Positions 10,288-19,720 of a stretch of 64,000 nt of DNA are shown here, one piece after another. A program made the position numbers and the translations under genes. Positions within the stretch are counted from its first letter, which is position 1, and each line of letters opens with the position of its first letter. This DNA comes from Candidatus Thiodiazotropha sp. 'RUGA' (lineage in GTDB: Bacteria; Pseudomonadota; Gammaproteobacteria; Chromatiales; Chromatiaceae), in assembly GCA_016842065.1 (NCBI GenBank), contig JAEPDS010000006.1, positions 1 to 64,000 on the forward strand, read 5' to 3'. Under the pieces are notes generated by a model. It searched no databases and was not told the DNA's origin. It was given only the letters and a program-made list of their open reading frames with translations.

Positions 10288-10662
10288 TTAAACCAATATA
10301 GGGTTGATGATCCAAAGGTTCTGCTTGATCCATTTTAAGAAAAGCTCAATGTCCCAACGCGCTTCGCAAATCCCTGCAATCGTCTTGGCAGCCAGTTTGG
10401 AGTTATTGGCCAGAACTACATTATGCCTGCCGGTTTCAGGATCACGATAACCGATACATCTGAGCTGAACAGGACATTTCCTTGAGGTGATCGGGCCTGT
10501 AAATTCAATCGTTTTATCGGATGTAAATTGTTTGCTTTTGATCACGCCGTGTCGTTCCACAACTCGATAAGCGGCATTGCTCTTCTGACAGGTAACAAAG
10601 AAAATCCCTTTTTTATTCTTAAAATCAATACTTCGATTAGTACTATTACCCCCAAATGTCAT
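10288..10662 (-). pseudogene. IS4-family transposase C-terminal fragment
   Basis: The reading frame contains GIFFVTCQKSNAAYRVVERH, CPVQLRCIGYRDPETGRHNVV and ICEARWDIELFLKWIKQNL, which match the region around the catalytic Glu (YREM-like ARWDIELFFKWIKQNL) of IS4-family transposases. It is truncated at both ends: the N-terminal two thirds are missing and the C-terminus stops right after WIKQNL. The apparent start overlaps a Pho box, so the first residues are not transposase. It is not collinear with the fragment at 8535-8685, so these are separate remnants. Confidence 0.8.
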
Positions 10663-10717
10663 ACAACTGTAATATTTCTAGAATATTATAGTAACTTATC
10701 TGTAATATTGATTGTCA
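10656..10717 (+). promoter_or_regulatory. Pho box array upstream of pstS
   Basis: Seven-base units similar to the PhoB half-site CTGTCAT/CTGTAAT recur about every 11 bases: ATGTCAT (10656), CTGTAAT (10667), CTAGAAT (10678), TAGTAAC (10689), CTGTAAT (10700) and ATTGTCA (10711). The first two and last two pairs make good Pho boxes with 4-base spacers; the middle two are weak. A possible -10, TATCAG, lies at 10734-10739. This predicts PhoB-dependent induction of the pst operon under phosphate limitation. Confidence 0.75.
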
Positions 10718-10847: not shown

Positions 10848-11732
10848 ATGAAGATTCTAAGGTCCACTGCCCTACCAATGGCAGCCGCACTCTTATTGAC
10901 CTCTGCACAAGCAGTCAATGCAGCTGATCGTACTGTTGTTCAGAACAAAGGTTCAGATACGCTCGTGAATGTCGCCCAGGCGTGGGCTGAAGAGTATGGA
11001 AAAGTCGATGCCAACGTGGCGATTGCCGTATCCGGTGGAGGATCGGGTACCGGTATTGCCGCGATGATCAACGGCACTGTCGATATCGCCAACGCCAGCC
11101 GAAAGATGAAATCAAAAGAGATCAAACTGGCTGAGAAAAAAGGCCAGAAGCCCGTAGAGCATGTGGTCGGCTACGATGCCCTGGCTGTCTTCATACACAG
11201 CAACAATCCGGCAACCGAGCTCAGTTACGACCAATTGAAAGCAGTATTCGCCCGTGGCGGTAAGGCTACCAAGTGGTCCGATCTCGGGCTGAGCGTACCG
11301 GGTTGTAAGAGTGATGAAATTGTGGTCGTCAGTCGCCAGAACAACTCTGGCACCTACGCCTATTTCAAGAAGGCTGTACTCGGTAAAAAAGGCAAGTTCC
11401 GCCAAGGTACCCTCGACATGCACGGCTCTAAAGATGTGGTCGACCTGGTAGAGAAGACCCCATGCGCCATCGGTTACAGCGGTCTGGCCTATGCAACGGA
11501 TCACATCAAAATGGCCTGTATTACCAAGCAGGCGGGTGAAGCCTGTGTCAATCCCAGCGTTGCAACCGCCAGCGATCGCAGCTATCCGATTGCCCGTCCC
11601 CTGCTGATGTACACCAATGGTGAACCTGCAGGAGAAATCAAAAAGTACATGGACTGGGTAAAGAGTGATGTGGGCCAATGTATCCTGAAGAATAAAGGCT
11701 ACGCCCCGACCGGAGATGTGAGTTGTAACTGA
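10848..11732 (+). CDS. pstS: Phosphate ABC transporter substrate-binding protein
   Basis: A 294-residue periplasmic phosphate-binding protein with a Sec signal peptide (MKILRSTALPMAAALLLTSAQAVNA, cleavage near residue 26). The phosphate-binding loops are recognisable: KGSDTLVNVAQAWAEEY, VSGGGSGTGIAAMINGTVDIANASR and SRQNNSGTYAYFKKAV. Three pairs of Cys in the C-terminal half (PGCKSDE, TPCAIGY, MACITK, EACVN, QCILK, VSCN) probably form disulfides. GAGGGG lies 4-5 bases before the ATG. It is first in a pst operon preceded by Pho boxes. Confidence 0.92.
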   Translation: MKILRSTALPMAAALLLTSAQAVNAADRTVVQNKGSDTLVNVAQAWAEEYGKVDANVAIAVSGGGSGTGIAAMINGTVDIANASRKMKSKEIKLAEKKGQKPVEHVVGYDALAVFIHSNNPATELSYDQLKAVFARGGKATKWSDLGLSVPGCKSDEIVVVSRQNNSGTYAYFKKAVLGKKGKFRQGTLDMHGSKDVVDLVEKTPCAIGYSGLAYATDHIKMACITKQAGEACVNPSVATASDRSYPIARPLLMYTNGEPAGEIKKYMDWVKSDVGQCILKNKGYAPTGDVSCN

Positions 11733-11857: not shown

Positions 11858-12931
11858 ATGTCCCATCTTGAAGAACGATTAGAACGAGACCTCAAAGATC
11901 TGCACGACCGAGTCGCCAAAATGGGGGCACAGGTCCAGGAGGCTGTTAAGAACTCGGTTTACGCCTTACAGACCGGCAATCGAAAACTTGCCTTTACCAC
12001 GGTATTGAATGACAACCCGATCAATCGATGTATGCGGGAGATCGACCGGATCTGTCACCGTTTTTTTGCGATTCACATCCCCAGCGGCGGCCATCTCCGT
12101 CTGCTCTCATCGGTGATCCGAGCCAATATTGAGCTGGAGCGTATTGGTGACTATGCAGTCACCATCGCGCGTGAATCCGCGCAGCTCTCCGAACCGCCCA
12201 GTGGCAATCTCAGCAGAGAGCTGGACCGGGTTGCCGGTGAAACCATGTTGATGCTGAAACAGTCGATCAAGGCATTCACCGAGTTGAATGCGGAACTGGC
12301 AAAAAGCACCATGGTCATGGCGGACGAACTGGAACACAACCTGGACGTCGTCTATACCGAGATGATGGCCAATGATGATCGGCAGCGGGTTGCTGAAGTG
12401 CTGGCGATCTTCGTCGTGTTCACCCAGCTCAAGCGCATCGCTGACCAGTCAAAAAACCTCTGTGAGGATACGGTATTTGCCGTCACCGGCGAGCAGAAGA
12501 AACCGAAAGTATTCAACATCCTGTTTGTCGATGAAGACAACAGCTGTCACTCCCAACTGGCCGAAGCAATTGCCCGTCGTAACCACCCCGATGTGGGTAG
12601 ATATCGCAGCGCGGGAAATGTTGCAGCCGCTGAGATCAACAGTAATCTTGCCACCTTTCTGGAGAGCAAAGGCATCGACTATAGCCAGGCAGGCATCAAC
12701 AGCCTCGACCAGTTGACTGAAAAAGAGATCTCAGAGCAGCATGTAATCGTCAGTCTGCAAGGTAATATTGAAACCTATCTGCCGAAACTGCCGTTCCATA
12801 CCTCTGCACTGGAGTGGGAGCTTGGCGAAATCCCCCATGATGAGGACAGTCATGACTTTGATCACCTCTACCACCAGCTTGCCGTTTTAATTAGGGACCT
12901 GATGGAGCTGCTGCGTGGGGAGGATGCCTGA
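11858..12931 (+). CDS. phoU: PhoU fused to a degenerate low-molecular-weight phosphatase-like domain
   Basis: A 357-residue protein. Residues about 1-215 hold two PhoU three-helix domains (helices with ELERIGDYAVTIAR and QLKRIADQSKNLCED, the metal-binding E/DxxxD signatures). Residues about 218-350 form an LMW-PTP/arsenate-reductase-like domain: NILFVDEDNSCHSQLAEAIA aligns with the phosphatase loop V-C-x-G-N-x-C-R-S-x-x-A-E-A, but the nucleophile is Asp225 and the P-loop Arg is His231, so it should be inactive. PhoU represses the Pho regulon through PstB and PhoR; the extra domain may be a phosphate or protein-binding sensor. Start chosen at 11858 (GGAG about 10 bases before); an upstream ATG-frame extension would cross the pstS hairpin. 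Confidence 0.88.
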   Translation: MSHLEERLERDLKDLHDRVAKMGAQVQEAVKNSVYALQTGNRKLAFTTVLNDNPINRCMREIDRICHRFFAIHIPSGGHLRLLSSVIRANIELERIGDYAVTIARESAQLSEPPSGNLSRELDRVAGETMLMLKQSIKAFTELNAELAKSTMVMADELEHNLDVVYTEMMANDDRQRVAEVLAIFVVFTQLKRIADQSKNLCEDTVFAVTGEQKKPKVFNILFVDEDNSCHSQLAEAIARRNHPDVGRYRSAGNVAAAEINSNLATFLESKGIDYSQAGINSLDQLTEKEISEQHVIVSLQGNIETYLPKLPFHTSALEWELGEIPHDEDSHDFDHLYHQLAVLIRDLMELLRGEDA

Positions 12932-12932
12932 G

Positions 12933-13865
12933 ATGCCCGAAGCCAGCTCAACGAAGTTAGCCAGCACCGCGGACTTCGACCGTCGGGACCTGGATTGGTA
13001 CATCGATAAGGTTGTTCAGCTTATCGTCTTTTTTGCCGGCATCTCCGCCATCATCTTCATTATCGGCATCTTCATCTTCATCACCATGGAGGGACTTGGA
13101 TTTCTGTTTGAGGATTTCACCTTCAAGGAGTTTTTCCTCTCACCTTTCTGGGAGCCCTCTGATGAAGATGCACCGGAGTACGGTATCCTGGCACTGATCG
13201 CCGGTACCGCCAGCGTCACCGGCCTGGCAATGATCGTCGCTATCCCCTTCTCTCTTGGCGCGGCGATCTATATCGGTGAGTTCGCCACCGGTAAAGTCCG
13301 CGAGACACTCAAGGTACTGGTTGAGCTGTTGGCCGCCATCCCATCCGTCGTCTGGGGCTTTATCGGACTGTCGATCATGAACCCGCTGATCATCGATCTA
13401 TTCGATGTGCCGGTTGGTCTGAATGTGTTGAATGCCGGCATCATCCTCGGATTGATGGCGGCACCGATCATGACATCGATCGCGGAAGATGCACTGAAAG
13501 CGGTTCCTGACCGTTACCGGGAAGCCGCCGAAGCCCTCGGTGCGACCCGCTGGCAGGTGATCTTCAAGACCGTGCTACCAGCCGCGAAAAACGGTTTGCT
13601 GGGTGCGGTGCTGCTTGGTGTCGGCCGTGGTTTCGGTGAGACGATGGCAGTGCTGATGGCCACCGGTCACGCGGTGAACATTCCGGGCAGTCTATTCGAT
13701 CCGGTAAGGGCATTGACCGCCACCATCGCCGCAGAGCTGGGTGAAACCGCTGTGGGCTCGCCTCACTATCAGGCGCTGTTCACCATCGGCATCTTCCTCT
13801 TCATCATTACTTTTCTGATCAACCTGACTGCGGACCTGATTGTCCGTGGCATCCGTAAGGGGTAA
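12933..13865 (+). CDS. pstC: Phosphate ABC transporter permease
   Basis: A 310-residue inner-membrane permease with about six membrane helices and the cytoplasmic coupling (EAA) loop YREAAEALGATRWQVIFKTVLPAAKNG that docks on the PstB ATPases. A helix at 30-60 (VVQLIVFFAGISAIIFIIGIF) is followed by a periplasmic segment rich in acidic residues. The ATG at 12933 is preferred (GGAGG 9 bases upstream); it begins one base after the phoU stop. Upstream in-frame GTG 12915 and ATG 12924 lack suitable spacing. Confidence 0.92.
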   Translation: MPEASSTKLASTADFDRRDLDWYIDKVVQLIVFFAGISAIIFIIGIFIFITMEGLGFLFEDFTFKEFFLSPFWEPSDEDAPEYGILALIAGTASVTGLAMIVAIPFSLGAAIYIGEFATGKVRETLKVLVELLAAIPSVVWGFIGLSIMNPLIIDLFDVPVGLNVLNAGIILGLMAAPIMTSIAEDALKAVPDRYREAAEALGATRWQVIFKTVLPAAKNGLLGAVLLGVGRGFGETMAVLMATGHAVNIPGSLFDPVRALTATIAAELGETAVGSPHYQALFTIGIFLFIITFLINLTADLIVRGIRKG

Positions 13866-13870
13866 GGCAG

Positions 13871-14740
13871 ATGTTTGCAGAATCCGATCTGAATGCCAGA
13901 AACAAACGGGTACAAGGCCTGTTTCGCATGCTTTTTCTTATGATGACCGTCCTGCTGATCGTGCCGGTGGCGATTATTCTGTTCACCCTGGTTTCCAAAG
14001 GCGGCAGTGTCATCTCAATCGATTTCCTGTTTACCAATCCCACCGATGGAATGACCGCCGGCGGTATCTTCCCGGCCCTGTTGGGTACCGTATGGATCGT
14101 TGCCGTTGCCCTGCTCGCCTCCGTGCCCTTGGGTGTAGCCGCAGCCATCTATCTGAATGAGTATGCCGGCGACAACTGGTTTACCCGCCTCATCCAGTTG
14201 GCCATCATCAATCTGGCCGGTGTTCCGTCGATTGTTCACGCACTCTTCGGGGTCGGCGCCTTCGTCATCTTCTTCGGCTTTGGCACCAGCATACTGGCGG
14301 CTAGTCTGACTCTGGCCATCATGACCCTGCCGATCGTCATCGTATCAACCCGTGAATCACTGAGAGCGGTGCCACAGGCGTTTCGTGAAGCCTGTTGGAA
14401 TATGGGTGCGACCCGTTGGCAGACCATCCGACGGATTGTGCTGCCAAATGCGATCAGCGGCATATTGACCGGTGTGATTCTCGAAGTCTCCCGCACCGCC
14501 GGCGAGACCGCACCGATCATGTTTACCGGTGCGGCATTCTTCCTGCCATTCCTGCCTCAGGGCGTATTCGATCAGACCATGGCGATGTCGCTGCATCTGT
14601 TCGTAGTGGCAACCCAGGTGCCAGGTGTACCGGAAGAGCTGCCCTTTGGTGTGGCGCTGGTACTGATTGCCATGGTGCTGATCATGAACAGCATCTCGAT
14701 CGCCTTTCGCATGTATCTGCGAGGTAAAAAGAAATGGTAA
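13871..14740 (+). CDS. pstA: Phosphate ABC transporter permease
   Basis: A 289-residue integral-membrane partner of PstC with six predicted helices and an EAA loop FREACWNMGATRWQTIRRIVLPNAISG. The LEVSRTAGETAPIMFTGAAFF stretch is characteristic of PstA. It starts 5 bases after pstC and overlaps pstB1 by 7 bases. Confidence 0.93.
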   Translation: MFAESDLNARNKRVQGLFRMLFLMMTVLLIVPVAIILFTLVSKGGSVISIDFLFTNPTDGMTAGGIFPALLGTVWIVAVALLASVPLGVAAAIYLNEYAGDNWFTRLIQLAIINLAGVPSIVHALFGVGAFVIFFGFGTSILAASLTLAIMTLPIVIVSTRESLRAVPQAFREACWNMGATRWQTIRRIVLPNAISGILTGVILEVSRTAGETAPIMFTGAAFFLPFLPQGVFDQTMAMSLHLFVVATQVPGVPEELPFGVALVLIAMVLIMNSISIAFRMYLRGKKKW

Positions 14741-15549
14741 ATCCCAATACCAATCTCAATGTCGAGGCAGAACAGGTTCCTGTCGCGGAAGAGGCCCCGG
14801 TTAAACTGGAAATCAATGACCTGACCATAAAGTATGGCCAACACACCGCGCTAAAAGGGGTAAACCTGGAAATACGTGAGCACGAGGTGTTCGGCATCAT
14901 CGGCCCGGCCAATGCGGGAAAGACTTCGTTCCTGAAATCGATCAACCGTATGGACACCTTCGACAGCAACATGTCGGTTGAGGGACAGATCAAATTCAAT
15001 GGACTGGATGTTCAGAATCTGAATAATATCTACGCCCTGCGCAGCCGCATCGGTGTGGTGTTTCCCCTGCCGGTGGGTCTGCCTCTGACAATCTATGAAA
15101 ACGTTGCCCTGTCACCCAGGCTGCGAGGCATCAACAGTAAGAGCGAACTGGATATCATCGTTGAACGCTGTCTGACCCGTGCCGCCCTTTGGGACGAGGT
15201 GAAAGATCGCCTCAACTCACTCGGCAGCTTGCTCTCCGGTGGACAGCAACAGCGCCTGACCATCGCCAGAGCACTCTCACAGGATCCGGACCTGCTGATG
15301 CTGGACGAATTCTCGATTGCCGTCGATCCGGTCACCACCATGCGCATCGAGGATGTACTCAAAGAGCTGAAAAAGGATATGACCATCATCCTGGTCACCA
15401 ATCTGGTTCAACAGGCGAGACGTCTGGCCGACCGAACCGCCTTTTTCCTCGAAAACGAATGTGTCGAGGTAGGCAATACGGAGGATCTCTTCACCGGCGA
15501 GGTGAAGGACCAGAGAACCCGTGATTACGTCGAGGGTAAGTTCGGCTGA
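14734..15549 (+). CDS. PstB-type ATPase 1, Q-loop and switch-His defective
   Basis: A 271-residue ABC ATPase of the PstB family. Present: Walker A GPANAGKT (57-64), signature LSGGQQQR (167-174), Walker B LLMLDE with D191/E192. Missing: the Q-loop Gln, where FPLPVGLP puts Pro111 in place of the Q of FQxPNPFP, and the switch His, where VTNLVQQA has Asn223 for the H of VTHNMQQA. The D-loop is also unusual (FSIAVDP for PCSALDP). Its own ATP site is therefore probably poor, but it can supply an intact signature to a partner. An N-terminal 20-residue acidic extension precedes the domain. It overlaps pstA by 7 bases and is followed 42 bases later by the second PstB. Confidence 0.88.
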   Translation: MVNPNTNLNVEAEQVPVAEEAPVKLEINDLTIKYGQHTALKGVNLEIREHEVFGIIGPANAGKTSFLKSINRMDTFDSNMSVEGQIKFNGLDVQNLNNIYALRSRIGVVFPLPVGLPLTIYENVALSPRLRGINSKSELDIIVERCLTRAALWDEVKDRLNSLGSLLSGGQQQRLTIARALSQDPDLLMLDEFSIAVDPVTTMRIEDVLKELKKDMTIILVTNLVQQARRLADRTAFFLENECVEVGNTEDLFTGEVKDQRTRDYVEGKFG

Positions 15550-15591
15550 TGCCGATGCTTAGAGCCTGTTAACACGAATACGAAAACCAAC

Positions 15592-16383
15592 ATGAATGCC
15601 ATAATAGATCAAGACGACAACCAATCCCCAGAGTATGCCATTCATACCCGGAAGCTGAATCTGTGGTACGGCACCTTTCAAGCCCTTTTCGATGTGGACC
15701 TGAGTATTCGAAATGGCATGATCACTTCGCTGATCGGCCCATCCGGCTGTGGTAAATCGACCTTTCTGCGCAGTGTCAACCGCATCAACGAGCGTCTGGG
15801 CTATGTGCGAATCGAAGGCGACATCGATGTCCTGGACAACAATATCTACGATCCGGCCGTCGAACTGGTACAGGTCAGAAAGCAGATCGGTATGGTATTC
15901 CAGCGCCCCAACCCACTGCCGATCTCAATCCGCGACAACATTCTGTTCGGCCATCGCCTGCACAACAAGGGCTCCAAAGCGGATCAGGATGAGATCGTCG
16001 AGTCCGCACTCAAGCAGGTGCTGCTGTGGGACAAGGTCAAGGACCGTTTGAACCACAAGGGCACTGAACTCTCCCTGGAGGAGCAGCAGAAGCTCTGCAT
16101 CGCCCGGCTGCTGCCGGTGAAGCCCAGTGTGCTGCTGATGGATGAGCCCTGCTCTGCTTTGGACCCGAAGGGAACCGCAGCGGTAGAGGAGTTGATCTGG
16201 GAACTGCGTGGTGAATACACCATCCTGATTGTGACTCACAACATGGCCCAGGCCAGACGAGCCAGCGAAGAGTGTATCTTCATGCTGATGGGTAAAGTGA
16301 TCGAGCATCAGGCGACGGAAGATCTGTTTGTCACCCCGGCGCAGAAAGAGACGGCGGATTATATTGAAGGGCGGTATGGTTAG
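15592..16383 (+). CDS. pstB: PstB-type ATPase 2, signature-motif defective
   Basis: A 263-residue phosphate-transporter ATPase. Walker A GPSGCGKST (49-57), Q-loop Q104 in VFQRPNPLP, Walker B LLMDEP (D184/E185), D-loop SALDP and switch His216 in VTHNMAQA are all canonical. The ABC signature is ruined: LSLEEQQK at 160-167 replaces LSGGQQQR. It therefore has a complete catalytic half-site and needs the LSGGQ of another protomer. PstB1 next door supplies exactly that, suggesting an obligate heterodimer with one working site. This is the end of the pst operon. Confidence 0.9.
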   Translation: MNAIIDQDDNQSPEYAIHTRKLNLWYGTFQALFDVDLSIRNGMITSLIGPSGCGKSTFLRSVNRINERLGYVRIEGDIDVLDNNIYDPAVELVQVRKQIGMVFQRPNPLPISIRDNILFGHRLHNKGSKADQDEIVESALKQVLLWDKVKDRLNHKGTELSLEEQQKLCIARLLPVKPSVLLMDEPCSALDPKGTAAVEELIWELRGEYTILIVTHNMAQARRASEECIFMLMGKVIEHQATEDLFVTPAQKETADYIEGRYG

Positions 16384-16816: not shown

Positions 16817-17674
16817 ATGCCGCGTCCTAAGCCTTTAATTTATAGACTTGTCTTTTTAACCGCTCTGCTGGTTACATGGAGCACTCTGGACGCTCAAGAA
16901 CCCGTGCGCGATGGAGAAGCTGTTTACAGCTTTGGCGTTGTCCCGCAGTTTGAACAACGTAAACTTTTTCGAATTTGGCGCCCCATTCTTGATGAACTGG
17001 AACGTCGCACCAAGCTAACGTTTCATCTGGTCGGAAGCCCTAAAATCCCTGTTTTCGAGCAGAAATTCATGACAGGAGTCTACGACTTTGCGTATATGAA
17101 TCCTTACCACATCCTCATAGCTAAAGATAAACAAGGCTATGAGCCACTGGTACGCGACGGTAGCCGCAGTCTGAATGGAATTCTGGTTGTTGCAAAAGAA
17201 AGCCCATACGAAAAACCATCTGACCTGAGTAACAAGGTGATAGCCTTTCCCGCCCCCAATGCCCTTGGTGCTTCGCTATTGATGCGTGCAGATCTCACTG
17301 AGCTACATGGCATTGAGGTACACCCGAAGTATGTGCAAACCCATAGCTCAGTCTATCTGCACGTTGCCACTGGCCTCACAGAAGCCGGAGGTGGTGTTCT
17401 CAGGACACTGCGAGCTCAAGATTCGGAGGTAAGAGATCGATTACGCGTTCTATACAAGACTCGACCAATCAATCCACACCCAATCGCCGCTCACCCGCGA
17501 GTTCCGGTTGAACACCAAGAACGTGTCCGGAGGGCGATATTGGATATGGCAATGACTTCAAAGGGAAAGGAACTGCTATCAAAAATTCCAATGCGACAGG
17601 CTGTGAGATCCAGAATCGAAGACTATTCAGAGCTCAGAGAGTGGAATCTAGAGAATTACTACGTAGACCACTGA
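16817..17674 (+). CDS. PhnD-like periplasmic substrate-binding protein (sensor type)
   Basis: A 285-residue exported protein of the phosphonate/phosphite PhnD-type binding-protein family (PF12974). The signal peptide ends near residue 26 (STLDA/QE). Family features are YSFGVVPQFEQRKLFRIWRPILDELERRT at the mature N-terminus, FMTGVYDFAYMNPYHILIA and VVAKESPYEKPSDLSNKVIAFPAPNALGASL. No permease or ATPase accompanies it; instead a HAMP-GGDEF-EAL protein follows 42 bases downstream, which suggests a periplasmic ligand sensor for c-di-GMP signalling. The ligand is unknown. Confidence 0.8.
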   Translation: MPRPKPLIYRLVFLTALLVTWSTLDAQEPVRDGEAVYSFGVVPQFEQRKLFRIWRPILDELERRTKLTFHLVGSPKIPVFEQKFMTGVYDFAYMNPYHILIAKDKQGYEPLVRDGSRSLNGILVVAKESPYEKPSDLSNKVIAFPAPNALGASLLMRADLTELHGIEVHPKYVQTHSSVYLHVATGLTEAGGGVLRTLRAQDSEVRDRLRVLYKTRPINPHPIAAHPRVPVEHQERVRRAILDMAMTSKGKELLSKIPMRQAVRSRIEDYSELREWNLENYYVDH

Positions 17675-17716
17675 ATGGTGGACTAGGGTGTTTACATATT
17701 ATTTTCTGAAAAGGCA

Positions 17717-19720
17717 ATGACACTCAGGATCAAACTACTGTTGCCACTGCTGGGTTTCAGTGCCCTGCTAGCCTCCTATATTCTGTTTGGCTGGCTACCG
17801 GAATTCACCAATCGAATGGAGGCAACTGAGCGAGAAAACACAAAAGCGCATTTGATCACCGTTTCTGAGGGTCTAGTACCTCTCTTGCTCGAAGAGCAGA
17901 TTGCCAATGTCTACGAAAATCTAGACGCCCTATTAAAACACACACCCAATTGGAAGTATTTGCAACTTTCATCTCCAGATGGACTGCGTATCTACCCCTT
18001 ATCTCCTGTAGATAACAAAGCCCTGAAGTCGTCGGATATAGAAGTAATCTCTCGGCCTATTGGCTTTCTGGGGCCACCGCTTGCATACCTGGAACTAGCT
18101 TACGACCTTGGCCCAGCCAGGCAGGAAATTGCTGAGCTTTCGCATCGACTTCAAATTGTGTTTATAGCTCTCCTGGTAGCATTTCTGGGAGCAATTATCG
18201 TGACCTTGGAGCTTCTGGTAAGCCGCCCTCTATCGGGGGTGGGAAAAGCAGCAGATGCAGTTGCACGTGGTCAATTCAGTTCAGAGCTCCCCACTTTCAA
18301 TGACGATGAGATCGGCAATTTAGCAAGGCGTTTCCACGCAATGCGCAAAGCACTGCAAGAACACCATAAACAGCTACTAAATGAAATCAGTGCCCACCTC
18401 GAAACATCGGAGGCATTAGCCAGGGAAAAGGAACAAGCTGCTCACCAGGCATCTCATGACCCCTTGACTGGTCTCATTAATCGCCGTGAATTTGAGTTGC
18501 GTCTAGAGCAATCTCTTACGCTTGCAACGCGTGAATCTGGTCAACACGCCCTTCTCTATATTGATTTGGACCAGTTCAAGGTAGTCAACGATACATGCGG
18601 TCACATCGCCGGGGATGCATTGCTCCAGCAACTTCGTAAGATCATGCTCGACCAGATCCGACAAGGCGATACACTAGCACGCCTCGGAGGTGACGAATTC
18701 GGCTTATTACTAATGCATTGCGAACTACCCAGCGCAGAAAAGATTGCAAATAAACTCATAGGTGCTATCCGGGAGTACAGATTCAATTGGGAGGAAGACA
18801 GCTTCACAGTGGGAGCCAGCATCGGTCTTGTTGCAATTGACAATCACTGGAACGACAAAAATCAAATTCTAAGTGCCGCAGATTCAGCCTGTTACATGGC
18901 CAAGGAAGCGGGGCGTAACCAAGTACGCGCATACAAAGAAAGCGACCAGGAGCTTGTCGCGCGTAAAGGCGAGATGATGTGGATCTCCCGCCTTGTCACT
19001 GCATTACAAGAAAACCACTTCATTCTCTATGGACAACGAATACATAAAATTAACGCTGATAATGAGGCTTCGTTTAAACACATAGAAGCACTTGTTCGCT
19101 TACAGACTAATGAGGGAGACATTGTTCCCCCGGGGGCCTTCATACCCGCTGCTGAGCGCTTCAACCTGATTTCCCAAATTGACCGCTGGGTGTTTGACAA
19201 GTCAATCGAGCTACTTCACGATTCTGCATTCGACACCCCCATGGAGCTTTCGATCAATCTTTCAGGGGTTTCAATTAGCTCACCGGGATTCTTGCTTCAC
19301 GTTGAACAAACCATTCAGGAGGAAGGCCTCAATGGACACAGAATCTGCTTTGAAATCACGGAATCATCAGCTATTCGCAACCTAGAAGCGGCAACAAACT
19401 TCATCCAGCGATTGACTTACTTAGGTTGTCTTTTCGCGCTGGATGACTTCGGTAGTGGGATGTCATCCTTTCAATACCTGAAAGCCCTTCACGTCGACTA
19501 CGTAAAGATTGATGGCGCATTCGTCCGTGATATCACACTAGATCCGACAGACTACGCGATGGTTAAAGCAATCAACGACGTTGCTACTAGCATGAAACTT
19601 ATAACGATTGCCGAATACGTCGAAAATGAAGCCACACTGCATGCCCTGAAAGAGATTGGCGTGGATTATGCTCAAGGCTACTATATTGGTATGCCATGCC
19701 CACTAGATGAATGTCTTTAG
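17717..19720 (+). CDS. HAMP-GGDEF-EAL c-di-GMP turnover protein
   Basis: A 667-residue inner-membrane protein. Helix 1 (about 7-28), a periplasmic domain (about 30-140), helix 2 (about 145-170), HAMP (about 170-225), GGDEF and EAL. The GGDEF motif is intact (324-328) with an inhibitory I-site RxxD (RQGD) five residues before it. EAL residues are kept: E457-A-L, INLSG, FEITES, D576-D577-FGSG and VKIDGAFV. Both diguanylate cyclase and phosphodiesterase activities are plausible. It follows the PhnD-like binding protein by 42 bases and probably receives its signal. AAGG lies just before the ATG. Confidence 0.9.
   Translation: MTLRIKLLLPLLGFSALLASYILFGWLPEFTNRMEATERENTKAHLITVSEGLVPLLLEEQIANVYENLDALLKHTPNWKYLQLSSPDGLRIYPLSPVDNKALKSSDIEVISRPIGFLGPPLAYLELAYDLGPARQEIAELSHRLQIVFIALLVAFLGAIIVTLELLVSRPLSGVGKAADAVARGQFSSELPTFNDDEIGNLARRFHAMRKALQEHHKQLLNEISAHLETSEALAREKEQAAHQASHDPLTGLINRREFELRLEQSLTLATRESGQHALLYIDLDQFKVVNDTCGHIAGDALLQQLRKIMLDQIRQGDTLARLGGDEFGLLLMHCELPSAEKIANKLIGAIREYRFNWEEDSFTVGASIGLVAIDNHWNDKNQILSAADSACYMAKEAGRNQVRAYKESDQELVARKGEMMWISRLVTALQENHFILYGQRIHKINADNEASFKHIEALVRLQTNEGDIVPPGAFIPAAERFNLISQIDRWVFDKSIELLHDSAFDTPMELSINLSGVSISSPGFLLHVEQTIQEEGLNGHRICFEITESSAIRNLEAATNFIQRLTYLGCLFALDDFGSGMSSFQYLKALHVDYVKIDGAFVRDITLDPTDYAMVKAINDVATSMKLITIAEYVENEATLHALKEIGVDYAQGYYIGMPCPLDECL

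Follow-up and report, generated by a model that had tools for sequence, protein, structure and literature searches.

The textbook system for high-affinity phosphate import is Pst, whose ATPase is regarded as a homodimer. A window of 64,000 nucleotides from Candidatus Thiodiazotropha sp. 'RUGA' (contig JAEPDS010000006.1, positions 1 to 64,000 of the forward strand; "the window" below means this whole stretch) contains a six-gene operon on the + strand, in the order pstS, phoU-ArsC-like fusion, pstC, pstA, pstB1 and pstB2, whose last two genes encode PstB-like nucleotide-binding domains (NBDs) with complementary motif losses. In a dimer of ATP-binding cassette (ABC) proteins each ATP site combines the Walker half of one subunit with the signature of the other, and all changes in PstB1 and PstB2 thus fall in one composite site while the other is complete. 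Judged from sequence, the operon probably encodes an ancient heterodimeric Pst-type phosphate importer in which one ATP site hydrolyses and the other is degenerate, a reading in which we have good confidence.

The Escherichia coli PstSCAB-PhoU system, with its PstB homodimer, resembles this operon in its PstS, PstC, PstA and PhoU families, its PstB-nearest NBDs and a Pho-box-like site. It differs in that the window has a pair of PstB-like subunits, each scoring under the TIGR00972 cut-off and each lacking motifs that the other keeps, a PhoU placed after pstS and fused to a putative ArsC-like pseudo-enzyme, and a distinct PstA coupling helix. ECF transporters and RbsA/MglA-type sugar importers are importers with unequal ATP sites, and differ in family, subunit architecture and substrate. 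The exporters TAP, TM287/288 and TmrAB, as generally understood, share with this locus changes that lie in one composite site and are split between two subunits, an arrangement found here in 68/68 fully readable pairs. One-site exporters usually lose the Walker B Glu, which PstB1 keeps (Asp-Glu in 74/74 readable proteins); they also differ in that the system here is an importer, its NBDs are separate polypeptides, and its losses are the Q-loop Gln and the switch His. The exporter analogy of the initial annotation therefore stands for one complete and one degenerate site but not for the residues lost. The available part of one study names ABCC1 and TmrB as examples of Walker B Glu loss in the degenerate site and describes the exporter degenerate site as conserved in orthologues (PMC7756269). 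Neighbouring pstB1 and pstB2 genes also share a pst operon in Enterococcus faecalis and other Firmicutes; the two E. faecalis proteins have intact Walker A, Walker B, LSGGQ and H-loop motifs, the Q-loop not being reported in the available text (PMC12096839), and complementary defects are therefore not indicated there. A search of the open-access literature, with subscription journals and preprints outside its scope, found no account of PstB pairs whose motif losses are complementary. What appears to be new is a Pst importer that follows the one-site principle of exporters but has lost other residues than they have.

Complementary motif losses in PstB1 and PstB2

The two ATPases in the window are:

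14734..15549, + strand: PstB1, 271 aa; NBD with Q-loop Gln replaced by Pro, switch His replaced by Asn, and LSGGQ intact
15592..16383, + strand: PstB2, 263 aa; NBD with complete core motifs and the degenerate signature LSLEEQ

PstB1 has the Walker A motif GPANAGKT (57-64), with an unusual Asn at the fourth position and the GK[ST] end kept, a Q-loop reading F-P-L-P with Pro111 in place of Gln, an intact LSGGQ signature (167-171), the Walker B motif LLMLDEF (187-193) with the catalytic Glu, the D-loop IAVDP, and the switch VTNL with Asn223. PstB2 has the Walker A motif GPSGCGKS (49-56), Gln104 in the Q-loop, LSLEEQ (160-165) instead of LSGGQ, the Walker B motif LLMDEP, SALDP, and the switch His216. 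The substituted and retained residues named in the initial annotation (Pro111, Asn223 and LSGGQ at 167-171; Q104, H216 and LSLEEQ) were right to the residue. TIGR00972 (PstB) is the best family for both NBDs, yet PstB1 (279.1 bits) and PstB2 (328.7 bits) lie below its cut-off of 343.2; neither has the complete set of motifs expected of a PstB equivalog, and their losses are complementary. Among solved structures, the PstB chains in PDB 9k3x and 9k3s are nearest to both in sequence.

Relatives were collected from 56 genomes near this one, GTDB contigs (best 80 of 588), 369 genomes of the class, and 294 genomes of a second phylum, that of G062, a planctomycete metagenome-assembled genome (MAG). 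PstB1 was present in 18/22 genomes of the genus (this genome included) and in 4/13 others of the family. After removal of duplicates 76 PstB1 and 73 PstB2 proteins were counted, leaving out loci L001-L008, the same-genome duplicate loci L126-L139, L149 and L152, and matches below 150 bits. Proteins were assigned to clades by identity and not by motif (PstB1 at least 53%, PstB2 at least 55.5%); L064 was placed by hand as PstB2 (55%, beside a 54% PstB1), and L066, L072 and L081 (54-55%) as canonical. Two pairs, those of L040 and L043, end before the PstB2 signature.

The Q-loop Pro of PstB1 was found in 76/76 proteins, the switch Asn in 74/74 readable and LSGGQ in 76/76, and Walker A GK[ST] in every readable row. 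The Q-loop stretch PLPVGLP was invariant at every position (76/76) and unlike the canonical stretch. In PstB2 the signature lacked GG in 70/70 readable proteins, and the Q-loop Gln (72/72) and switch His (69/69) were kept. The pattern was complete in all 68 pairs readable at every motif, which supports the earlier suggestion of one complete and one degenerate site, and the two genes adjoined on one strand in 73/73 pairs. Among PstB-like ATPases outside both clades (above 150 bits), 64/66 kept all three positions; these controls were picked for likeness to PstB1 and hence are not a random sample. The two exceptions are third paralogues within pair loci (L055:8480-9277 and L056:7411-8295), which are more degenerate, with the signatures LSIGQ and LTTSM and the switch His lost, and are possibly pseudo-ATPases of a second system.

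By record title the readable pairs come from eight phyla (Pseudomonadota, Planctomycetota, Rhodothermales, Acidobacteria, Poribacteria, Verrucomicrobia, a Deltaproteobacteria bin and Bacteriovoracaceae), and a ninth, Nitrospirales (L043), has a complete PstB1 and a PstB2 that ends short of the signature; since nearly all records are metagenome bins, individual assignments could be in error. The counts do not stand for 76 independent events, since many loci are close kin (22 in the genus and family). PstB1 proteins of two same-genus genomes are 97-98% identical to that of the window, and no stops occur within the listed PstB matches. Sequencing error, which the initial annotation had raised against itself, is excluded because identical substitutions recur in independent genomes. 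That the matched changes recur across many phyla indicates a lopsided design of ancient origin that has been maintained, rather than decay.

Co-occurrence was scored at an E-value of 1e-85 or less on the best few first-look candidates per genome, a cut-off that misses deeper relatives. In the class sample both proteins occurred in the same 8/369 genomes. In the second phylum PstB1 was found in 22/294 and PstB2 in 27/294 genomes, with all 22 shared; of the five extra PstB2 matches four were ordinary PstB proteins with MSGGQ, and one, in G457, was a deeper pair whose PstB1 was found only since its PstB2 passed. Occurrence of one partner without the other, which the initial annotation had set as a refuting condition, was thus not seen in either sample. 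Three loci (L054, L065 and L085) have PstB1 without PstB2, but their matches stop within a few bases of a contig end. The deeper pair (L166/L175, G457:C205:19274-20772), left out of the 68 and 73 counts and followed by a plain phoU, has a Q-loop Ala, switch Asn and LSGGQ in partner 1 and LSPEQ in partner 2; such a division of roles, kept with other residues, is as expected from selection for a split machine.

In a maximum-likelihood tree of 99 chosen proteins (quick search without bootstraps, motif columns excluded), 37 PstB1 formed one clade (Shimodaira-Hasegawa-like approximate likelihood ratio test, SH-aLRT, 89), 37 PstB2 formed another (95), and 24 canonical proteins fell outside both; the G457 PstB1 sat on a long branch. 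Pairwise distances of PstB1 and PstB2 over the 37 pairs were correlated (Mantel r = 0.90, with 0/5000 permutations as high), which shows co-inheritance, part of it being shared species history that was not subtracted. No natural PstB1-PstB2 gene fusion, which would have spoken directly for a 1:1 complex, occurred among the locus open reading frames (ORFs) examined.

The operon, its PhoU fusion and its probable link to phosphate

The remaining features of the operon are:

10656..10673, + strand: Pho-box-like site, 192 nt 5' of the pstS ATG
10848..11732, + strand: PstS, phosphate-binding protein (NCBIfam TIGR02136, 239 bits, cut-off 206.6)
11858..12931, + strand: PhoU with a C-terminal low-molecular-weight (LMW) phosphatase/ArsC-like domain (TIGR02135, 135 bits, cut-off 130.25); start set at ATG 11858, the listed ORF starting further upstream
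12915..13865, + strand: PstC permease (TIGR02138, 280.1 bits, cut-off 196.45); start codon as listed
13871..14740, + strand: PstA permease with the clade-specific coupling helix REACWNMGATRWQTI (TIGR00974, 261.1 bits, cut-off 193.45)

PstS, PhoU, PstC and PstA all exceed their NCBIfam cut-offs, placing members of the Pst-complex families together in one operon, and the last 7 nt of pstA also belong to pstB1. The gene order is kept in most relative loci that extend far enough. A second PstS-like gene lies directly 3' of pstB2 in the same-genus loci L014, L019 and L021 (52-54% identity to the window PstS). In the window a PhnD-like phosphonate-binding protein and a HAMP-GGDEF-EAL protein (16817-19720) follow 433 nt 3' of pstB2, a possible phosphorus-linked cyclic di-GMP module outside the conserved operon.

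In pair loci the sequence of the PstA coupling helix is REACWNMGATRWQT. In alignment columns its Trp was present in 75/75 PstA proteins of pair loci vs 0/55 other PstA, as was the Asn that follows the helix (PN; 75/75 vs 0/55). PstC of the pair operons has a well-conserved REAAEALGAT at its coupling helix, nearer the general form. Coupling helices of importers dock beside the Q-loop, and on that basis PstA most likely docks on PstB1 and PstC on PstB2.

Matches of the PhoU fusion to ArsC/LMWPc begin at residue 253 of the listed ORF and are weak. Its AlphaFold2 model has a predicted local distance difference test (pLDDT) score of 88.8, with Foldseek matches to PhoU over about 210 residues and to ArsC over about 130. 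At the position of the catalytic Cys, located via the CX5R motif, 29 aligned rows including the window had Asp in 26, Gly in 2 and Cys in 1 (L057), and the fusion appears to be a conserved pseudo-enzyme on a phosphate signalling protein. It was not found in some divergent pair loci (e.g. L051-L053, L055, L056 and L064) and is therefore not obligatory. No title returned by the open-access literature search, which for this point covered titles alone, names a PhoU-ArsC fusion.

The Pho-box-like site in the window agrees with the Pho-box consensus at 12/14 fixed positions (0/200 mononucleotide shuffles). Because a looser scan of the whole window was near chance (13 matches vs 7.75 expected), this single match is weak alone. 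Sites of 12-13/14 were also found 5' of pstS in six same-genus loci (L126, L127, L128, L129, L134 and L135; 0/200) and in L122, from another family (1/200), so that 8/25 upstream regions scanned have one. Flanking ORFs were inspected in eight loci, five of them run against NCBIfam and the others judged by eye or left unidentified; phoB-phoR lies directly 3' of pstB2 in L122 and L125, both gammaproteobacterial, above NCBIfam cut-offs. With these sites and neighbours the substrate is most likely phosphate, and the operon may be controlled by PhoB, at any rate near L122 and in this genus.

A second pst operon of this genome, pstS-C-A-B on contig C57, is complete, and its PstB scores 406.4 bits with TIGR00972. 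Other PstB copies were searched in 52 pair genomes with PstB2 as query (E-value of 1e-50 or less), matches of 44-51% being taken as canonical-range irrespective of motifs. At this threshold no canonical-range PstB was found in 29/52 genomes (14/25 and 15/27), although absence is not proof because most are MAGs; G060, with an unexplained 39% match, was not counted as lacking, and G071 was counted despite a degenerate third paralogue. Seven of the 29 were rechecked with the TIGR00972 profile: the third matches of G348 and G451 were GlnQ-like, and those of G211, G322, G062 and G065 scored 140-165 bits. For the seventh, the complete genome G276, the reading of the pair as its sole Pst was dropped in view of a divergent pst-like operon near C3:200 kb. 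That locus (L173, G276:C3:196000-204000) encodes a PstB-like ATPase with intact motifs (TIGR00972, 199.9 bits) and neighbours that by eye resemble pstS, pstC, pstA and phosphoglycerate mutase. Three Accumulibacter bins carry the pair, each alongside a canonical-range PstB; Accumulibacter are the polyphosphate accumulators of wastewater treatment.

Proposed mechanism and alternative explanations

PstB1 and PstB2 would form one NBD pair beneath the PstC/PstA permease. Site A, made of the PstB2 Walker A, Walker B, Q-loop and switch with the PstB1 LSGGQ, has all canonical residues and would hydrolyse ATP; site B, made of the PstB1 Walker A/B half (Q-loop Pro, switch Asn) and the PstB2 LSLEEQ, would bind ATP with little or no hydrolysis and serve a structural or allosteric role. 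On phosphate starvation the operon would be induced via PhoB, ATP at both sites would close the PstB1-PstB2 pair, PstS would hand over phosphate, and only site A would hydrolyse. The PstB1 site may retain its ATP and keep the NBDs from opening fully between cycles, a role suggested for the degenerate site of exporters (PMC7756269), and PhoU, its ArsC-like domain being catalytically dead, would sense the NBDs. Heterodimer formation, hydrolysis at one site, the pairing of permeases with NBDs and phosphate as the substrate are what we infer. That the signature matters in Pst is indicated by E. coli PstB, where the signature change Q160K significantly altered phosphate uptake and lowered alkaline phosphatase in both conditions, according to the available part of PMC5775613.

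A more far-reaching version, which we put forward tentatively and regard as rather doubtful, is that the operon is an obligately asymmetric phosphate machine with sensing and pumping split over unequal ATP sites. One ATP would be hydrolysed per cycle, at the site of PstB2 core and PstB1 signature, and the PstB1 site would be a lasting ATP clamp docked on the dedicated PstA coupling helix. The ArsC-like domain of PhoU may still bind an oxyanion, reading the lopsided state and signalling to PhoR, and such an importer would have persisted across many phyla.

Several observations weigh against a one-site importer. The Walker B Glu is still present in PstB1. Replacing the switch His of the ABCC1 working site by Asn left transport near wild-type, and changes of the ABCC1 Q-loop Gln were not fatal (PMC7756269); the PstB1 half need not, then, be inactive from those residues alone. 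Given the complete Pst on C57, uptake as such does not require the pair, and co-occurrence of adjacent genes also fits two homodimers in one operon. No Pho box clearly above shuffles was found in 17/25 upstream regions, which include L121, L125, L130 and L132 (gammaproteobacterial) and every region outside the gammaproteobacteria, L125 being among them despite its downstream phoBR. The two E. faecalis pstB genes, adjacent as here, are functionally non-overlapping in the available part of PMC12096839.

The ABCC1 result, with the Walker A GK[ST] and Walker B Asp-Glu that PstB1 keeps in every readable row, would suit a heterodimer in which both sites hydrolyse at unequal rates. We consider this improbable, as site B sums three changes (Q-loop Pro, switch Asn and a signature without GG) in every readable pair, and the PstB1 Q-loop stretch is invariant yet non-canonical. 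By analogy with E. faecalis, PstB1 and PstB2 might instead form two homodimers with different roles, such as transport and signalling, on a shared PstCA; this is a little less probable again, for both E. faecalis proteins keep the four motifs reported in the accessible text (PMC12096839), whereas here a PstB2 homodimer would have both sites without LSGGQ, a PstB1 homodimer both sites without the Q-loop Gln and switch His, and the lesions are complementary in 68/68 pairs.

The PhoU fusion lacking the catalytic Cys, the phoBR genes adjoining the operon in two relatives, the second, complete Pst in this genome, and the proposal, in the available part of PMC5775613, that E. coli PstB conformations signal PhoR via PhoU would all fit a phosphate receptor, in which an NBD pair of slow or no turnover reports to PhoU-PhoR and a canonical Pst or Pit does the bulk uptake. 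Such a receptor is also improbable, slightly more so than the two alternatives just described, given that no readable pair has lost a catalytic residue from site A, that 29/52 pair genomes have no canonical-range PstB at the search threshold, and that PstS and the permeases are full family members. Decay of one or both genes as degrading duplicates, or sequencing error, might be suggested by motif losses in both genes and the complete Pst elsewhere; it is refuted by the absence of stops within the listed matches, the same residues being invariant across phyla, PLPVGLP in 76/76 proteins and the 97-98% identity to two same-genus PstB1. The complete extra pstB that the initial annotation had set as an objection thus exists, on C57, and its force is weakened by the constraint on the pair and by the 29/52 genomes.

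Implications for ABC importers

If the one-site reading is true, the Thiodiazotropha operon and its relatives would be a natural importer counterpart of the one-site exporters, with an ATPase split into unequal, mutually dependent halves. It would allow one to ask directly if import of each phosphate takes a single ATP hydrolysis event or two. Because PstB conformation has been proposed to inform PhoU-PhoR (available part of PMC5775613), a permanently lopsided PstB pair could also be a way to separate transport from signalling.

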